Assembly: GCA_017447305.1 (NCBI GenBank)
Contig: JAFSNY010000045.1
Location: 1-52,860 of the forward strand
Direction of reading: 5' to 3'
DNA length: 52,860 nt
Origin: Bacilli bacterium
Lineage (GTDB): Bacteria > Bacillota_I > Bacilli_A > RFN20 > CAG-826
Both the position numbers and the translations under genes were made by a program. The notes under the pieces were generated by a model. The model did no database searches. It was not told where the DNA came from and saw only the letters and a program-made list of their open reading frames with translations. Positions 9,860 through 47,100 of this stretch are shown piece by piece (position 1 is the first letter of the stretch; the number at the start of each line of letters is the position of its first letter).

Positions 9860-11836
9860 TTAGAGGCTCGCTTTCATCTCTAAAATAATGTCTCTAAGTT
9901 CGGCAGCTCTTTCAAAATCAAACTCTTTCGCTGCTTGTTTCATTTGTTTTTCTAATTCTTTAATTCTCGCTTCAATTTCTCTTCTTGATCCATGTTTTGT
10001 GAGATCAATCATTTCTTCGATTTCGTTATCAGTGTTTCTAATAGGAGCGCGAATCTCTTTAATAATTGTCATCGGAATAATGCCGTTTTCTTCGTTATAG
10101 GCGATTTGTTTAGCACGACGACGATTAGTTTCATCAATAGCATTCCTCATCGAATCTGTAATTGTATCAGCATACATAATAACAAGTCCGTTAGCGTTTC
10201 TCGCTGCACGACCAGTGATTTGAATTAATGATCTCGCACTTCTTAAAAACCCTTCTTTATCTGCATCTAGGATCGCCACAAGAGAGACTTCTGGAATGTC
10301 AAGTCCTTCCCTAAGAAGATTAATACCAACAAGAACATCATATTTTCCTTTTCTTAATTGATAGATAACTTCACTTCTTTCGAGTGTTTTGGTTTCATGA
10401 TGCAAATAAACAACTTTGATTCCTCTTTCCTTTAAGAAGTTTGTAAGGTCCTCCGCCATACGAATGGTAAGAGTAACTATCATCACTCTTTCATTTTTCT
10501 GAATTCTTTCTTTAATTTCAAAGAGAAGATCATCGATCTGACCCATGGTTTTTCTAACTTCAATACGTGGGTCGACAAGTCCGGTTGGTCGAATGATTTG
10601 TTCAGCGATTGGAGCATCTTTATTTTCTAACTCATAATCACCAGGTGTCGCTGATGTACAAATGACCTGCTTAATGAGTGAACTAAACTCATCAAAGTTA
10701 AGAGGGCGGTTATCTAAAGCAGATGGAAGTCTAAATCCATACTCAACAAGAGAGAGTTTTCTTGAATGATCACCATTGTACATACCTCTAATTTGAGGAA
10801 TGGAAACGTGTGACTCATCAATAAAAAGAAGAAAATCATCTGGGAAATAGTCAATCAAACAGAAAGGTCTTTCTCCTGGTTGACGTTTATCAATGTGTCT
10901 TGAGTAGTTTTCAATACCATGGCACATACCAAATTCCTGCATCGAATCCATATCTTGGTTAGTTCTCATTTCAAGACGTTCAGCTTCAAGATATTTTTCT
11001 TCTTTTTTGAAATATTCTAATCTCTCTTTTAATTCGACTTTAATACTCTCGCAGGCTTCAATAATCCTCTCTCTTGTAGAAGCGTGGTCGTACGCTGGGA
11101 AGATAGGAAATGTTCGATATGTTTGTCTTGTTTCTCCGGTAAGAATATTGACTTCACTAATCTTTTCAATTTCATCGCCAAAAGTGTCAATTCTAATGAC
11201 ATATTGTTCATCTAAATTTGGGGTTACAAGCTCGATAACATCGCCTCTCACTCTAAAGCTTCCGAAGGTTAAATCAAGATTGTTTCTTTTATACTGTGCA
11301 TCGACTAGTTTTTTATAGAATTCTTGGCGATTAATTTCTTCTCCAACACGAATATCAAACACTAATCTTTTATATTCGTCCGGATCTGTTAAACCATAAA
11401 TTGAGGCCACTGAAGCAACAACAATCGTGTCTCTTCTTTCAAGTACGGAATTGATTGCGGAGGTTCTTAACATCTCAATTTCTTCGTTCATTACCGCGGT
11501 CTTATCGATGTATGTATCACTCTTTGGAATATATGCTTCCGGCTGATAAAAATCGAAGTTAGAAACAAAATATTCCACCCTATTATTTGGAAAGAGTTCT
11601 TTAAATTCTGAGTATAGTTGACCAGCTAAAGTTTTATTGTGAACAAGGATTAAAGCAGGCCTTTGTTCGCGTTCGATAATGTTAGCCATCGTAAACGTTT
11701 TTCCGGTTCCGGTCGCTCCTAAAAGAACCTGAAATTTCTTGCCGCTTTCAATCCCCTCGCATAGCTGTTTAATGGCTTGAGGTTGATCTCCAGTTGGCTT
11801 GAATTTTGATACAATTTCAAAACGATGGTTACTCAT
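9860..11836 (-). CDS. uvrB: Excinuclease ABC subunit UvrB
   Basis: UvrB, 658 aa, the DNA damage-verification helicase-like subunit of nucleotide excision repair. The Walker A motif GATGTGKT is at residues 40-47, and the beta-hairpin region [16 protein letters not shown] that grips damaged DNA follows. Helicase motifs ([25 protein letters not shown]) are intact. A C-terminal UVR motif (about residues 625-655, [24 protein letters not shown] region) binds UvrC or UvrA. uvrA, often next to uvrB, is not in this window. It is 26 nt downstream of the YitT-type gene. Confidence 0.98.
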
Positions 11837-29473: not shown

Positions 29474-29905
29474 ATGAATATCGACACATTCAAAGGTTTA
29501 TTAGCCACACAAACCACTCCTAGAGGATTTGCTTGGAGCGAAGAACAAACAGATGATAAAAGTATCGCTGTCTTATCATGCAACATAGGTTTCCCATACT
29601 ATGATGATGATTGTGTTATTCGTGTAGTTGTGTCTCAAAAAACGTTGGAAGTCGTTTTCCTTTTAGATGCGATTGTTCCAACATTTGACAATTTGAAGTT
29701 AGTTAATGACTTTAACGCTCAAGTGTCATATTTGAAAGCACACATTCATAAAACACAAAGATCTTATTTATTATTTATCTCTTCCGGCATTATCAATATT
29801 GATAATGAACAAACCGCTGTTAATAATGTTGTCTCCTTGGTTGATTATGTCGCATCTCAAGATGTCGCCATCTACCTTAGACCATTAACCGTTATTACTC
29901 AATAA
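29474..29905 (+). CDS. Small protein of unknown function next to the AAA-M41 gene
   Basis: A 143-aa alpha/beta protein without signal peptide or membrane segments. The pattern (helix, strands IAVLSCNIGFPYYDDDCVIRVVV and LEVVFLLDAIV, helix LVNDFNAQVSYLKAHI, strand RSYLLFISSG, C-terminal helix) resembles YbjN or type III secretion chaperone-like folds, but I cannot assign a family. It ends 11 nt before the ATG of the large AAA-metallopeptidase, which has AAGGAGAG in between, so the two are cotranscribed. A role as adaptor or substrate-binding partner of that protein is inference. Confidence 0.7.
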   Translation: MNIDTFKGLLATQTTPRGFAWSEEQTDDKSIAVLSCNIGFPYYDDDCVIRVVVSQKTLEVVFLLDAIVPTFDNLKLVNDFNAQVSYLKAHIHKTQRSYLLFISSGIINIDNEQTAVNNVVSLVDYVASQDVAIYLRPLTVITQ

Positions 29906-29916
29906 GGAGAGCCATT

Positions 29917-32900
29917 ATGAAAAGAATCGTTGTAAACATCAACCACGAATTTAACCAAAACTTCAAAGAAGCCGCAAATGTAAGCTTTTTTGATGCTGTT
30001 ATTGGACTTTTAGGAAAACAATTCGGTAATGAAAATATCACTGTTATCGATAGAGATGATTTCAATTTACAGCTCGAAGTTAATAACGGAAGACAAGAAG
30101 TTGATTCTAACGCTTTAATCAAATTCATCGTTGATTCCTTAGGTGTTGGAAATCTCTTCGGTAAAGCGTTCTCCATTTCTTGTTATAATGTCGCACCTAA
30201 AGAAGGCGGTTTATTCGAACTTCCTAAAATAGGTGAATCAAAATTCGCTAAACAAGTTAAAAAGATTAAGGGCTTAAATGAGTATTTACTCGATAAAGTT
30301 GTCGGACAAGAATTCGCTGTTAACACCGTTGTTAATGGTTTTATTGAAACATCAACATTCAAAACAAAGAATGATGATCGTCCAAAATTAACATTCTTCT
30401 TTGCCGGACCAGAAGGAACTGGTAAATCAGTTTTAGCGAAAGAAACCGTTAATTATTTAGAGATTCCAAACGTTGCTTTCAATTCCACGGACTACACAAA
30501 TGCGGATAGAGTGTACGCGAAGATTTCTAAACTAATCAATGCCAATCCAAATAACTGTGCAATTATCTTCGATGATTGTGATCGTTTCAATATGGATATG
30601 ACATCTTTAGTCTATGGCATTTATCTAAACGGTCAACTCGGAGGTTTGTCTTTCCGTAATGTTACCGTCTTCTTTACCACTAATGCTGGACGTTCCCTCT
30701 ATGAGAACACTCCAAGAAAGAACTTATCTCACTTAGCCAAACAAGACATTCTTGATGCATGTGGAAGAGAAATTGATAAACTTACCAATTCATATTGCTT
30801 CCATCCTTTACTTCTTAGGATGTTCCAAAACGAACATGTCGTCATGTTCAATCATTTACAAACCATCAACTATCAATTCATCCTTGTTCACCATATTGAA
30901 GAACTCATCAATAGCTTCATGGAAAACACAGGAATCGCTGTGAAAGCTGATGCTTATGAATTATCGAAGGTTGTCATTTATTCCAACCCAGAAGAAAGAG
31001 ATATCAAAAAGCTCAAAGAAGCCGCTGAAAAACTCTTATCTAACGAAATTCAATACATCGTTAAGCAAAATGGCGAAGAAGATAAATCACTTCTTCTCTC
31101 AATTGAACAAATCGCCTTTGATATCGACTTAAAGGGCGCAGAAAAGCCTGTTAAGACACTCTTTAGGGATAGAATGTATAAAGTCCTTGTTGCCTCTGAT
31201 GACGCCGAAATGGAAGTCATTAAAAATGCTGCACATGAAACATACGAATTTATCCATGCTTCTACACTTGAACAAGTGAAGAAAGATATCAAGAAAGGTA
31301 TCGACCTTGTCTTAGTTGATCCTTTATTTGGATTAAGAGATGAGGAATTGCCAGTTGATATCGAAGATTACAATAGCGTCGGTAATGACATCTTTGAATA
31401 TGTCAACCGCTTCTATTCAAGAATTCCACTATTCATCATTTCTAATACACGTTATGAGAAACCATATAACGCTTATCAAACTTTAATCAACAAGGGCGTT
31501 AGTGAACTTATTCATTACAGCAATGATGACGTTTCTAATTTAGCAAACGCTATTTACGCTGACATTGCGGGATTTGAACTCGAAAACGATGTCCAAGCGT
31601 TAAGAAAAGGCAATATGCATCTTGAATTTAACGCTAAACAAGAAATCAAAGGAAAAGATGCGAAAGTAATCTTATCCAAACTCTCCTTAAGACCTGTTGC
31701 TTTAGAACACTACAACAATAAAGATGCAGACTTTAGAAGAATTAAGAATTTAGATGATGTTATCGGTAATGACGTCTGTAAAGATTCATTAAGAAAATTT
31801 GGTCGTTATTTATCCGCAACTTCTGAATACTTAGAAGAAGGTTCTTTACCACCAAAACTCCTCATTATCAATGGACGTAATGGAACAGGTAAAACCTCCC
31901 TTGTTAAAGCTTTAGCGGAAGAAACTTCATCATGCATCATCTCTATTGATGTTAAAGACTTCATCATCAAGCAACGTGATTATGTTGATGAAATGCAAGA
32001 AGCCTTTAAGAAAGCAAGATATTCCTCTCCTGCTATTATCCACTTCCAAAACATCAACATCTTATTTGGAGGATATGAGAACTTTGATTCCATTAGAGCC
32101 TTTGAGACGCTTAATAACGAATTAACATATTCATATAACGACTACTATCACCCAGTTATTGTTATTGGTGAATGTGATCCTAACTATTCAGTTAGTCCAA
32201 AGCTTACTGAAATCGCAACGAGATTCTTCCGCCTCCCAATTCCAACAGTCGCAGATATTGAAAAATACATTAGAAAATATCTCACTGATAAGAACATTAC
32301 CACCGTTTCTGATAAGGCTATCCATAACTTTGCTTTAAGAAATGGATTTGGAACCTTTGGTTCAACAAAGAAAGCCTTAGAATTCGCTTTAGGTAACTCA
32401 GGCGGAAAAGGCCTCACTGATGAAGTCTTAAAAGAATCCTTCGATGTCTTAATGTTTGGTGATATCGACTTAAGAAAACGTTCCGAACACGACTTAAGAA
32501 CAACCGCATATCACGAAATTGGTCACTACATCTTATTTAGACTCTTTGGTATTAGACCGCCATTTGTCACTATCGTTCCAAGAGGATACTATAATGGCTA
32601 TACTCTTCACGAAGTGAAGGATGAAAGCACACACCACACCAAGCAAATGAATTTGAATGACATTTGCGTCTCCTTCGGTGGACGTGCCGCTGAAGTCACT
32701 CTTAATGGTGATAAAGAAGGTATTACCTCTGGTATTAGTGGCGATATCGTCATGGCGACAGAAACCGCCTTCATGATGGTTGCCTGCTACGCGATGGGTG
32801 ATAAACTCGCCGCCTACACCGATGACTTACCACCAGAGATTAGATATCAATCTCCTGAAATCTATGATAATGTCAACCGCATTCTCGATGAGCAATACGC

Positions 32901-33036
32901 CAGAGCGTTAAAACTCATTAAACTCAACGAGAAATCACTTATCAAGCTCGGTGAAGCACTCTTGAAGAATCGTTCCATGACTGGTGATGAACTCGAAGAA
33001 TTGCTTCCTGATGATAAATTAATCAAAGAAGAATAA
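29917..33036 (+). CDS. Two-AAA-domain protein with a receiver-like insert and an M41 (FtsH-type) zinc peptidase
   Basis: A 1039-aa cytosolic protein. Residues about 120-330 are a Clp/Hsp100-like AAA module: Walker A GPEGTGKS (164-171), Walker B IIFDD (216-220), sensor 1 FFTTNAG (252-258), arginine finger near R301. Residues about 420-550 look like a receiver fold (VLVASDD, DLVLVDP with D468, IPLFIISN) without the usual Lys. Residues about 610-850 are FtsH-like AAA: Walker A GRNGTGKT (653-660), but the Walker B position reads IIHFQN, so both acidic residues are gone. Residues 866-870 are HEIGH, and the third zinc ligand is likely D943 in TSGISGDI, so the peptidase looks intact. FtsH's membrane helices are absent. 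A terminator follows. Confidence 0.85.
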   Translation: MKRIVVNINHEFNQNFKEAANVSFFDAVIGLLGKQFGNENITVIDRDDFNLQLEVNNGRQEVDSNALIKFIVDSLGVGNLFGKAFSISCYNVAPKEGGLFELPKIGESKFAKQVKKIKGLNEYLLDKVVGQEFAVNTVVNGFIETSTFKTKNDDRPKLTFFFAGPEGTGKSVLAKETVNYLEIPNVAFNSTDYTNADRVYAKISKLINANPNNCAIIFDDCDRFNMDMTSLVYGIYLNGQLGGLSFRNVTVFFTTNAGRSLYENTPRKNLSHLAKQDILDACGREIDKLTNSYCFHPLLLRMFQNEHVVMFNHLQTINYQFILVHHIEELINSFMENTGIAVKADAYELSKVVIYSNPEERDIKKLKEAAEKLLSNEIQYIVKQNGEEDKSLLLSIEQIAFDIDLKGAEKPVKTLFRDRMYKVLVASDDAEMEVIKNAAHETYEFIHASTLEQVKKDIKKGIDLVLVDPLFGLRDEELPVDIEDYNSVGNDIFEYVNRFYSRIPLFIISNTRYEKPYNAYQTLINKGVSELIHYSNDDVSNLANAIYADIAGFELENDVQALRKGNMHLEFNAKQEIKGKDAKVILSKLSLRPVALEHYNNKDADFRRIKNLDDVIGNDVCKDSLRKFGRYLSATSEYLEEGSLPPKLLIINGRNGTGKTSLVKALAEETSSCIISIDVKDFIIKQRDYVDEMQEAFKKARYSSPAIIHFQNINILFGGYENFDSIRAFETLNNELTYSYNDYYHPVIVIGECDPNYSVSPKLTEIATRFFRLPIPTVADIEKYIRKYLTDKNITTVSDKAIHNFALRNGFGTFGSTKKALEFALGNSGGKGLTDEVLKESFDVLMFGDIDLRKRSEHDLRTTAYHEIGHYILFRLFGIRPPFVTIVPRGYYNGYTLHEVKDESTHHTKQMNLNDICVSFGGRAAEVTLNGDKEGITSGISGDIVMATETAFMMVACYAMGDKLAAYTDDLPPEIRYQSPEIYDNVNRILDEQYARALKLIKLNEKSLIKLGEALLKNRSMTGDELEELLPDDKLIKEE

Positions 33037-33106: not shown

Positions 33107-36100
33107 TTATTTTACCATGGAGAGGAATTCTTCGATCTCTTTATTTCTGTTTCGATTATCGAGATAAATGTAACCGAGAAGTGTTGATAAGAAGATCAAT
33201 GAACCAACACATGAGAGGAAGATGCCACCTCTTAAATATGGAGTGTAATAATCCATCTCATATTTGACCGCGCCTTCTTCACCAAGGAATCCAACGAATC
33301 CACCTTGGGAGAGATAGGTGTCAAGTTTCTTTGTCGTTCCATCACTTGATTTAGCTTTGACGGACCATCCCTTATCATAAGCAACTTGAGTAACGATAAA
33401 TCTTTGCTTATCGAAGTTTGTGGTGAAGTCAAAATGATTATCACGGTAATGGACATTTTCAACTTTGTATTGTTTTAGTTCCGCCATCTTGTTTTCATTA
33501 AATGACGTATATGATTCATAGAAAACATCTTCTCTAGTATTGAATGTTCCCCAACGTGGAACGATGATGATTTCTTTGACTTTTCTAGCTGGGGTATTAT
33601 TGACCGCTCTTGAATAAAGAGCACGTGGTCCACGTCTAGAAGTATTGTCGCTTCCACGATCATCATTATGGTTATCACCAGTGATGACTTTGTCATCATC
33701 ACCAATAAGATAGATATCTACTTTTTGACTGTTATAGTAGTTAGCGTTACAGTAGAATACCATTCCCTTAGGATCATAGAATAAATCTTCATTTCCTGGT
33801 TTTGGTCTAATAACGATAACGTAAACTAGTCCACTATTCTTTTCAGGACGAGGATCGACGATTCTATTATCATCATTAACTTGATTAATGATATCTGCAA
33901 TTTTCATATTCTTAGCAACTTTGCTCATCTTATAAACAGTGGAATACCATTTACTGCTGTTAGGTAACGATTTTGCATACACTCTTTGAGCATCAACAGT
34001 GTCTAAAACACCTTTAACTGGCTGGAGAGTTAAATCGCCATCAGCTTCTTCAATAACCTTATTAGCTTCTTCTTTATCAAGAATTGCGCCTTTTAAGAAC
34101 AAATCGTCGTTTCTTAAAGCGGTCCAAGAAGTGTCGATGGTTTTATCAGCGGAAATCAAATCGTTTTCTTCATCATATGGATAAATATCATCATATGTTA
34201 AAGCAAAATCGATATGATTGGTGTCCATATAGGTTTTGAAGTAATCGCTTTGATATTTGCTTGTTACTTCAACGAAATCAAATGGAACATTCGCGTATCC
34301 TGCATATAATCTATCTTTTTCGAGGAAATAATATTTAATACCCAAGAATCTATCTAATCCAATACGTTTTTCCACGTATCTTCCAGACCAACCAGATTTA
34401 GATGTTAAAATCATTGACCAATAGGAGAAATTACAGACATCGAAGTTATAAACTGAATGGAAGAAGGAGGCACCATTAAAGTCATTTCTCGCTCCATCGT
34501 TCTTATTCGCATCCGTACTCATCGTGGAATAGGCTCTGAAATAGGATTTATCATCGTTATTGATTCTTTCAACGATGCTATGTAATGCTTCATTCTTGTA
34601 GAAACCGTAGTTAACATCGAGATACTCTTTTGTTCCATGACCATAAATTGTTAAAGCGCCCATGACACCAGCTTCAACGACAAGGAATCCATAAAGAATT
34701 TTTCTAATGTGCTTATAGTTAAGGAAGATTACCCAAATTGTTGTAAGACCACACACATAGACAATCGCGATGATAGCCGCGGTCATGATGTTGTTTCTTT
34801 CGGTAAAACTGGAATATGTGGAAACGATATATTTCGCAAGTGCAGCAGCGGCGATAATACCAATAACTGTGAATAATCCACCAGCGATAAGCGTTCCTTT
34901 TGGCTCTTCTTTTATATGGTCGAGATATTCCGCTGTATAAGTTAAGAGTGAGGTTGTAACAAAGATTGTCCAACGAGAATATGGTTTGGTAAAACCAAAG
35001 AATAGATAATAGAAGAATGGGGTGAAAATGGTAAAGACCATTAAGCAAACACCAACGACGTGTGACCATTTCTTTTGTTTGATACTTCTAATAAAGGCAG
35101 GAACTAAAAGAATAATGAATGGATAATAACAGAAGGTACTTCCCGCAACATTATCGTATGTTTCGTTGCCTAATTGAGTTAGTGGTGTGCCACGATCAGA
35201 CATCGCTGGGAAGAAGAATTCAATCGCTGGATATAAGTTACGATATTCCGATTTATTATCAAGATTTTTCCAGTTGAAAATATAATCAAATAATTCTTTA
35301 AACTTACCAGCTTTGAGGAATTCTTTGAGAGAATCTAAATAGGTCGCGCTTGTCGCTCTTGGAGCTTCTAAAGCTACCATAATTGATGGAAGAGCGATGA
35401 TGCTCGCCATTAAAATACCGGCGACGAAAGCGATAAACCCAATTCCAAGGATCATCCAGTTATCTTTCATCGTGTTTTCTTTTAATCTTTGGAACCATCT
35501 AAACATCGCATAGACAAACGCCATCATAACAAAGCAGACAAGGAAGAAATAATTAACTAATCCAGAAAGGAAGATGGACGCCATTAAGAACCATGGTTTC
35601 TTGTCGCGAATAATCTTTTCAACACCCCAAAGCATCAAGACGAAGACCAAAGCGTTCTCTGTATAACAGTTGAACCATAAATACCATGCTGTCCAGCCAC
35701 AATATGCAAAAGCAACACCAGCAAGTCTAGATGAACGGTCACTGACCTTCATATATCTTAGATATCCATAGAAGACGAGACCTGCTAAAGACATCCTAAT
35801 AATCGTTGAAATAGCCATCATTTGTCCCATCCATGATCTTGGGAAGAATAAGACAATGAAGAAGAATGGGTCAAATAACGAATAGAAGCTATTAGAGCCA
35901 ATATTATTTACACCTAAGAAGGTGTTCATATCAAATAAACGGAATGAGCCAGTTTTAATAAAATGCCACCAATCATCATAAAGATTCAAATAGAAGGCAT
36001 ATTGCTGGGTGTTATAGTCTCCAGAGAATGGTGTGGTGAAGTGATTGGTGAACAAAGACACCATGAAAAAGATAACTCCAACACCGAGGAGAAAAATAAA

Positions 36101-36187
36101 GTAATAAAACAATGAATTAAGGTTCTTTAAGAAAGAGAATGCTTTTTTAATCTTTCCCTTAATATCTAAAGTTTCATTTGTTTCCAT
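33107..36187 (-). CDS. YfhO-family polytopic membrane protein
   Basis: A 1026-aa membrane protein. The N-terminal half has about a dozen hydrophobic helices with the family's characteristic loop motifs (YAFYLNLYDDWWHFI, YYPFIILLVPAF, KPYSRWTIF). A long extracytoplasmic domain with few helices follows (about residues 520-970), and one C-terminal helix with a basic tail ends the protein. YfhO proteins resemble GT-C glycosyltransferases and have been linked to glycosylation of lipoteichoic acid or other cell-envelope polymers in Bacilli. The exact acceptor here is unknown. There is no clear Shine-Dalgarno sequence before the ATG, and a TATATT lies only 9 nt upstream. Confidence 0.88.
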   Translation of the reverse strand: METNETLDIKGKIKKAFSFLKNLNSLFYYFIFLLGVGVIFFMVSLFTNHFTTPFSGDYNTQQYAFYLNLYDDWWHFIKTGSFRLFDMNTFLGVNNIGSNSFYSLFDPFFFIVLFFPRSWMGQMMAISTIIRMSLAGLVFYGYLRYMKVSDRSSRLAGVAFAYCGWTAWYLWFNCYTENALVFVLMLWGVEKIIRDKKPWFLMASIFLSGLVNYFFLVCFVMMAFVYAMFRWFQRLKENTMKDNWMILGIGFIAFVAGILMASIIALPSIMVALEAPRATSATYLDSLKEFLKAGKFKELFDYIFNWKNLDNKSEYRNLYPAIEFFFPAMSDRGTPLTQLGNETYDNVAGSTFCYYPFIILLVPAFIRSIKQKKWSHVVGVCLMVFTIFTPFFYYLFFGFTKPYSRWTIFVTTSLLTYTAEYLDHIKEEPKGTLIAGGLFTVIGIIAAAALAKYIVSTYSSFTERNNIMTAAIIAIVYVCGLTTIWVIFLNYKHIRKILYGFLVVEAGVMGALTIYGHGTKEYLDVNYGFYKNEALHSIVERINNDDKSYFRAYSTMSTDANKNDGARNDFNGASFFHSVYNFDVCNFSYWSMILTSKSGWSGRYVEKRIGLDRFLGIKYYFLEKDRLYAGYANVPFDFVEVTSKYQSDYFKTYMDTNHIDFALTYDDIYPYDEENDLISADKTIDTSWTALRNDDLFLKGAILDKEEANKVIEEADGDLTLQPVKGVLDTVDAQRVYAKSLPNSSKWYSTVYKMSKVAKNMKIADIINQVNDDNRIVDPRPEKNSGLVYVIVIRPKPGNEDLFYDPKGMVFYCNANYYNSQKVDIYLIGDDDKVITGDNHNDDRGSDNTSRRGPRALYSRAVNNTPARKVKEIIIVPRWGTFNTREDVFYESYTSFNENKMAELKQYKVENVHYRDNHFDFTTNFDKQRFIVTQVAYDKGWSVKAKSSDGTTKKLDTYLSQGGFVGFLGEEGAVKYEMDYYTPYLRGGIFLSCVGSLIFLSTLLGYIYLDNRNRNKEIEEFLSMVK

Positions 36188-46274: not shown

Positions 46275-46994
46275 CTATTTAATGGAATCTTTTGTTAAGG
46301 TTACTTCGTAACTGATTTGATATTTATGTGTGGTGTTAAAGTTCTCTTCTCGATACGATAATGAAATAAGATATTTATCTTTATATTCAAAAGCAAAAGA
46401 AGAAAGGAAGTTCTTGTGGTTTCTATCACTATAGATTTTGACATCACCACTGACATGGAAGTTCTTTTTGGTGCGGTATTTTTGAGCGATATTTTCTTCG
46501 TTCACGCTCTTTAAGTCTTCTAATCTTTGTTTTGTGTTAGCAGGGCGATCGATTTCATTGATTTTCTTTTCCGCTTTATCACTCGCTACCGCATAGTAGT
46601 AAACATTAAATGTTGATAAAGCTTTATCTTCATCACCTTCAACGATTGAAGTGAAGATTTTTCCGTCTTCTCCTTTGATTGAGCAATATAAAATATTGGA
46701 GTCGACATAATACCACGATTCCGCGATTTCTTCGGCCTCATTGTAGATATGAATGATGTTATTTATTTTTGATACTTCATAAAAGCAAACAATGTTTTCT
46801 TTGTCACCTTCAATGGTTGAATAATAGAAAGAAACTTCATCGAATGTTCTTAAATCACCATTCGTATAACGATCATAAATAATCATGTCTAAAATCTGCG
46901 CTGCTTGATTCGCATTAATCGAGGTATTTTGCGAACATGAAGCGAACACTAAAGTAGGCACTAATACGAGTAAAGGGATGAGCTTCTTCTTCAT
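46275..46994 (-). CDS. Small lipoprotein of unknown function
   Basis: Predicted lipoprotein, 239 aa. The signal peptide MKKKLIPLLVLVPTLVFASC ends in a lipobox with Cys at residue 20. The mature part is polar, with beta-rich segments (VSFYYSTIEGDKENIVCFYEV, YYVDSNILYCSIKGEDGK) and a C-terminal FEYKDKYLISLSYREEN. The open frame extends to a TTG at 47030, but the ATG at 46994 places the signal peptide correctly, and 47003 is another possibility. It is monocistronic and divergent from the GH13 gene. The family is not recognised. Confidence 0.75.
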   Translation of the reverse strand: MKKKLIPLLVLVPTLVFASCSQNTSINANQAAQILDMIIYDRYTNGDLRTFDEVSFYYSTIEGDKENIVCFYEVSKINNIIHIYNEAEEIAESWYYVDSNILYCSIKGEDGKIFTSIVEGDEDKALSTFNVYYYAVASDKAEKKINEIDRPANTKQRLEDLKSVNEENIAQKYRTKKNFHVSGDVKIYSDRNHKNFLSSFAFEYKDKYLISLSYREENFNTTHKYQISYEVTLTKDSIK

Positions 46995-47100
46995 ATCTAT
47001 CATTCTATTGATTTTTACTTCCTTATTCAAATATTTGTTCCGACTTCTTTTTTATAGTTATAAAAGAAAAAAATATATAAAATGATTAAGGAGAATTTTT

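Follow-up and report, generated by a model that had tools for sequence, protein, structure and literature searches.

AAA proteases normally couple a motor with a proteolytic chamber; in FtsH and Lon both are parts of one chain, and in Clp they are on two. Clp/Hsp100 proteins work with a separate peptidase, ClpP or HslV. Here we consider a protein, P0001, that carries a Clp-type module as well as a complete enzyme of the FtsH type, fused into a single soluble polypeptide. It is encoded by a gut-type Bacilli genome, by an open reading frame of 1039 amino acids with an ATG start. The stretch of DNA that we analyzed (the window) is 52,860 nucleotides long, and the features of interest are:

29474 to 29905, + strand: 143-aa protein (P0003) with a YbjN / type-III-chaperone fold, probable partner (AF2, Foldseek, hhalign, adjacency)
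29904 to 29909, + strand: AAGGAG, Shine-Dalgarno-like, which precedes P0001 and overlaps the stop codon of the gene for P0003 (read from the sequence)
29917 to 33036, + strand: P0001, the soluble hybrid AAA/receiver/AAA/M41 protein (Pfam, NCBIfam, PDB search, hydropathy)
29917 to 30201, + strand: N-terminal alpha/beta domain, residues 1-95, of no known family (Pfam; model pLDDT about 63-82)
30217 to 31116, + strand: Clp-type AAA module (AAA1), residues 101-400 (ClpA model match, Clp alignment)
31159 to 31596, + strand: degenerate receiver-like domain, residues 415-560 (hhalign profile comparison)
31732 to 32466, + strand: FtsH-type AAA module (AAA2), residues 606-850 (PDB search, alignment)
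32467 to 33033, + strand: M41 zinc peptidase domain, residues 851-1039, with HEIGH at 866-870 and D943 (Pfam, PDB search, alignment)

An earlier sequence-only reading of this DNA had proposed this order of domains, and Pfam, NCBIfam, a PDB search, and hhalign bear it out. Residues 112-378 match the NCBIfam model of ClpA (1.1e-14), and Pfam places an FtsH-like AAA domain at residues 650-764 (E = 1.1e-19) and M41 at residues 856-1029 (E = 5e-23). Residues 612-1029 align with solved FtsH structures (1.8e-22). The zinc site was correctly described as intact: the ligands H866 and H870 and the catalytic E867 are present, and D943 falls on the third zinc ligand of solved FtsH, in keeping with the likely Asp ligand that had been proposed. 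The claimed absence of a membrane anchor also holds: the maximum 19-residue hydropathy of P0001 is 1.25, which is below the threshold for a transmembrane segment, whereas two membrane segments were found in 29/29 FtsH proteins from related genomes. The model of full-length P0001 (pLDDT 45.4, from a two-row alignment) is too poor for conclusions about ring assembly or pore geometry; the C-terminal domain of ClpB (4fct) was among its weak fold matches.

Like FtsH (TIGR01241, PF01434), P0001 has an AAA module followed by M41, with HEIGH and an Asp as zinc ligands. Unlike FtsH, it has no transmembrane helices, and a Clp-type AAA module and a receiver-like domain stand in front; its score of 114 bits against the NCBIfam equivalog for FtsH is below the 600-bit family cut-off. 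AAA1 has a Clp-type sequence (ClpA, ClpB D2; AAA_2), but P0001 differs from Clp/Hsp100 proteins in having a single Clp-type module and a built-in peptidase, and it scores far under all of the Clp cut-offs. The genome also encodes an ordinary full FtsH, on another contig, so P0001 is an extra protease. The suggestion that no standard protease has such a domain order agrees with our searches, as we found no named family in the libraries and literature that we covered: no curated family in Pfam or NCBIfam is above its cut-off for the whole of P0001, and our literature search found no paper that joins M41 with a receiver domain.

The original proposal placed a degenerate receiver-like domain at residues 420-550. 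It held up: when a profile of four hybrid homologues was compared to 15 true receivers from the same genomes as the hybrids, hhalign gave a probability of 93% (E = 3e-7), while the best of 200 column shuffles reached 7.2%. (Pfam's Response_reg has no match in P0001 or its homologues.) The segment V-L-V-D468 of P0001 aligns with the strand that carries the phosphoacceptor in CheY-like receivers, and this Asp is retained in P0001 and in two of its relatives (P0004 and P0005, described below). Unlike working receivers, these proteins lack the acidic pair and the conserved Lys, and the domain sits between two AAA modules. As judged from these alignments, the middle domain is a pseudo-receiver.

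It had been suggested to search other Bacilli for the same domain order. We examined 279 genomes of the order and found it at three further loci; when only the receiver part served as the query, exactly the same four genomes were recovered. The closest relative is P0004, from the rumen metagenome-assembled genome RUG14810 of an uncultured Erysipelotrichaceae (G236; contig CADCNT010000009.1). P0004 is 36-37% identical to P0001 over its full length (1038 versus 1039 codons), and only this locus (L094) shares the N-terminal domain of P0001. The second relative, P0002 (from G075), has 941 amino acids. The third, P0005 (from G251), is on a contig that ends after the receiver part, so that its AAA2 and M41 would lie beyond the contig end. 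RUG14810 was assembled from a metagenome, and the genomes of the other carriers are drafts in several contigs, but an assembly chimera is very unlikely because the same domain order is found in separate assemblies.

We found no further hybrid in about 460 additional genomes of the class (searched in overlapping samples of 395 genomes from the class and 392 from the phylum); beyond the known hybrids, these searches returned Clp proteins only. Among genome contigs, a scan with P0001 by itself found no relative, and a scan with the two-row alignment found RUG14810 as the sole relative. Viral contigs contained no relative, no match in phages or plasmids covered 80% of P0002, and none in plasmids covered 80% of P0005. 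Some plasmid matches came in two pieces, and we rejected these as hybrids, as they are ClpK and FtsH genes that lie close together. The hybrid family is real but very rare, although its rarity is not fully proven, since the class and phylum samples overlap and only three candidates per genome were scored in them.

The hybrids probably share an origin. In a tree of AAA1 with 40 Clp proteins, the four hybrids group together (support 99/98), and in a tree of AAA2-M41, the three complete hybrids group together (support 94/93), with long branches. Therefore, a single fusion is the simplest reading of how the family arose. We also noticed soluble AAA-M41 proteins of about 415-505 amino acids in the same order of bacteria (L115:5854-7179, L116:5914-7239, L121:4539-5867, L117, L122, L123, and L124). 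Like the hybrids, these proteins, typically of about 440 amino acids, lack a membrane anchor and have an AAA module and HExGH, and those that we aligned lack the FVG motif. Unlike P0001, they have no Clp or receiver part, and the aligned ones keep the DE of Walker B. We considered whether the hybrid arose by way of a split gene from such proteins and rejected this, as they form their own group in the tree, apart from both FtsH and the hybrids, and no Clp-receiver gene lies beside them in the neighborhoods that we read.

The two AAA modules of P0001 look degenerate as motors. In AAA1, Walker A (G164-S171) is intact and the sensor-1 residue N256 is retained. Compared to Clp proteins, the pore-loop segment (with its GYVG) is gone after residue 197, the arginine finger and the sensor-2 arginine are lost, and Walker B has D219-D220, with Asp in place of the catalytic Glu; slow hydrolysis could remain with this substitution. 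In AAA2, Walker A (G653-T660) is intact, but Q711-N712 replaces the DE of Walker B, and both the FVG pore motif of FtsH and sensor 1 are lost. P0004 shows much the same losses: its AAA1 lacks the pore-loop segment, the arginine finger, and sensor 2 and has NE at Walker B, while its AAA2 lacks the pore motif and sensor 1 and has EE at Walker B. P0004 thus retains Glu at the catalytic position of both modules, and Walker A is intact in one of its modules as compared to both in P0001. The two more distant relatives are different. AAA1 of P0002 and of P0005 retains a Clp-type Walker B (DEFEK and DEVEK, respectively), the arginine finger, and the sensor-2 arginine; P0005 also retains a GYNG pore loop; and AAA2 of P0002 retains FIDEID, an aromatic pore motif (YRG), and AATN. 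All three complete hybrids (P0001, P0004, and P0002) have an intact zinc site.

These observations bear on the proposal that the hybrid is unfoldase and protease in one, self-contained and cytosolic, and that ATP hydrolysis by the Clp-like ring would thread the substrate into the M41 chamber. Both Walker A motifs, the D219-D220 pair, and N256 of P0001 are compatible with this, and relatives have kept a Clp-type motor. But it is hard to see the first ring of P0001 doing the ATP-driven work, as had been suggested, given what AAA1 has lost, and the loss of the pore loop, Walker B, and sensor 1 from AAA2 weakens the idea further. We think that this mechanism is unlikely for P0001; it fits better with P0002 (L004) and P0005 (L064), which keep the motor residues.

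Because the ATPase motifs persist in these two distant relatives, P0001 is best placed in a degenerate branch of the family, of which the peptidase is the best conserved part. Between P0001 and P0004, identity is 50.5% for M41, 38.8% for AAA2, and 30.3% for AAA1. Also, the differences between these two genes are 0.49, 0.38, and 0.63 at first, second, and third codon positions. Second positions differ the least and third positions the most, which is the pattern of a selected gene. So it appears that in the branch with P0001 and P0004, selection held the peptidase and relaxed both motors. The many missing AAA catalytic residues might instead mean that the gene is decaying and heading for loss. 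We consider this very improbable, as frames of 1039 and 1038 codons are intact in two genera, the codon positions show the pattern of a selected gene, and conservation is highest at the peptidase.

Another possibility is that P0001 is a regulatory subunit, which would join mixed rings with ordinary FtsH or Clp and alter their targets, with its own peptidase being secondary. Each genome with a hybrid does encode a full FtsH, and mixed rings with degenerate FtsH subunits are known, for example plant FtsHi (PMC8197885, PMC8042743). On the other hand, FtsHi has lost the peptidase and kept the AAA motor, which is the opposite of P0001; P0001 has no membrane anchor; and M41 is its best conserved domain. 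We consider this explanation improbable.

The gene for the 143-aa protein lies 11 bases upstream of the hybrid gene, on the same strand. For its AF2 model (pLDDT 80.5), the best Foldseek match in the PDB is E. coli YbjN (6vu7, probability 1.00, TM 0.57/0.60), followed by PA14_16140, SycH, and AmyR, with DR_1245 also among the top chaperone-type matches. The E-values are modest (5.9e-03 at best), and YbjN/SycH-type structures fill the top of the list. The protein has no match in Pfam, including to the YbjN family (PF10722), but hhalign gives 91% to L113, which is a marginal member of PF10722 (22.7 bits, with a cut-off of 22). Going by the model, the 143-aa protein has a YbjN/type-III-chaperone fold. 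It resembles YbjN and the TY-chaperones (6vu7, AmyR 5fr7, DR_1245, SycH) in predicted fold and in the order of its elements; unlike them, it adjoins an AAA protease, and we did not find such an adjacency described.

It had been asked whether this neighbor always accompanies the hybrid, and it does so only in part. At one of the three other loci, in RUG14810 (L094), an ortholog is directly upstream of the hybrid, even though the surroundings differ from those in the window, with ribokinase-type genes on one side and c-di-GMP genes on the other. (By eye, we recognized a receiver-like/PAS/GGDEF protein, HD-GYP proteins, and another GGDEF protein preceding the pair on the same strand, at L063:10525-17386.) In G251 (L064), a YbjN gene is likewise present two genes upstream of the hybrid, but it is a different one (PF10722, 3.9e-10); the genes upstream (L064:29-4067) encode a membrane protein of 971 amino acids that matches nothing in Pfam, the YbjN protein, and a protein of 169 amino acids that weakly matches PGDYG. 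G075 has neither an ortholog of the 143-aa gene nor another YbjN gene nearby; its hybrid is flanked by a DUF1292-like protein of 99 amino acids and by one of 367 amino acids that contains DDETEDF repeats and weakly matches FtsK-gamma (L065:7524-7823 and 10644-11747). Relatives of the partner are present in 26/279 genomes, and no AAA protease is beside them in the nine neighborhoods that we read. Thus, the association is specific to the hybrid carriers, with G075 as the exception. Those nine loci (L151-L159) hold YbjN-like proteins of about 143 amino acids from the same order of bacteria, including a tandem pair in L157.

The YbjN-like protein raises the possibility of a system for stress or conflict (phage defense), in which the chaperone would sense modified or foreign protein and pass it to the protease. 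Predicted ADP-ribose conflict systems include TY-chaperones (PMC9503650), other conflict systems include FtsH-like AAA proteins (PMC7159879), and the distribution of the hybrid is patchy. However, there was no match to a specific defense model (the PADLOC matches were to general AAA domains), and in the window the pair lies in a housekeeping replication cluster. The PHROG search matched general AAA or protease domains only. A defense role seems improbable to us. Elsewhere in the window, a large YfhO-family membrane protein lies directly downstream of the hybrid gene and is convergent with it (33107-36187, - strand), and there is a 251-aa open reading frame with no Pfam match at 46275-47030 (- strand).

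We prefer the explanation that P0001 is an accessory zinc protease on a nucleotide-binding scaffold, which is fed flexible substrates by a YbjN-like adaptor, and we give this about an even chance of being correct. P0001 would be an accessory cytosolic M41 protease whose two AAA modules do not thread substrates but still bind nucleotide and build a ring that holds the peptidase sites. Because the pore loops and hydrolysis residues are lost while both Walker A motifs and the zinc site are kept, the residues suggest that ATP binding acts as a switch: it would set the assembly or the on/off state of the protease rather than drive unfolding. The substrates would then be flexible or already unfolded proteins, and the peptidase of FtsH itself digests unfolded protein (PMC9020784). 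The co-encoded 143-aa protein may deliver substrate to P0001, by selecting and presenting it, and the pseudo-receiver and the N-terminal domain could be docking or sensing surfaces. TY-chaperones, including YbjN, are predicted to bind peptides (PMC9503650), and YbjN proteins are thought to work via protein-protein contacts (PMC5398634). In the literature that we searched, we did not find an adaptor role for YbjN proteins to be established; peptide binding is a published prediction (PMC9503650). Because the family includes motor-competent relatives, P0001 would be a derived branch, and the trees and motifs point to an ancestor that was a self-contained fusion of unfoldase and protease. A fuller version of this explanation is that the two fused AAA rings are scaffolds locked by nucleotide, that ATP binding gates M41 without threading, that the YbjN-fold chaperone presents the clients, and that the motor-driven ancestral form persists in sister genomes. 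We offer this version tentatively, as we suspect that it is not correct in every part.

The modules of the hybrid are all known. Within the searches that we made, their combination is new, as is a branch in which the motors are degenerate while the peptidase site is intact. Motor-competent and motor-degenerate versions in related bacteria form a natural pair, with which it should be possible to test how an AAA ring serves a peptidase if it is unable to thread, and whether proteases can have a YbjN-fold protein as their adaptor. If the adaptor role is true, it would give a function to the widespread but poorly understood YbjN family. And if our explanation of P0001 is true, these bacteria would have regulated proteolysis without an unfolding motor, which evolved from a motor-driven ancestor.
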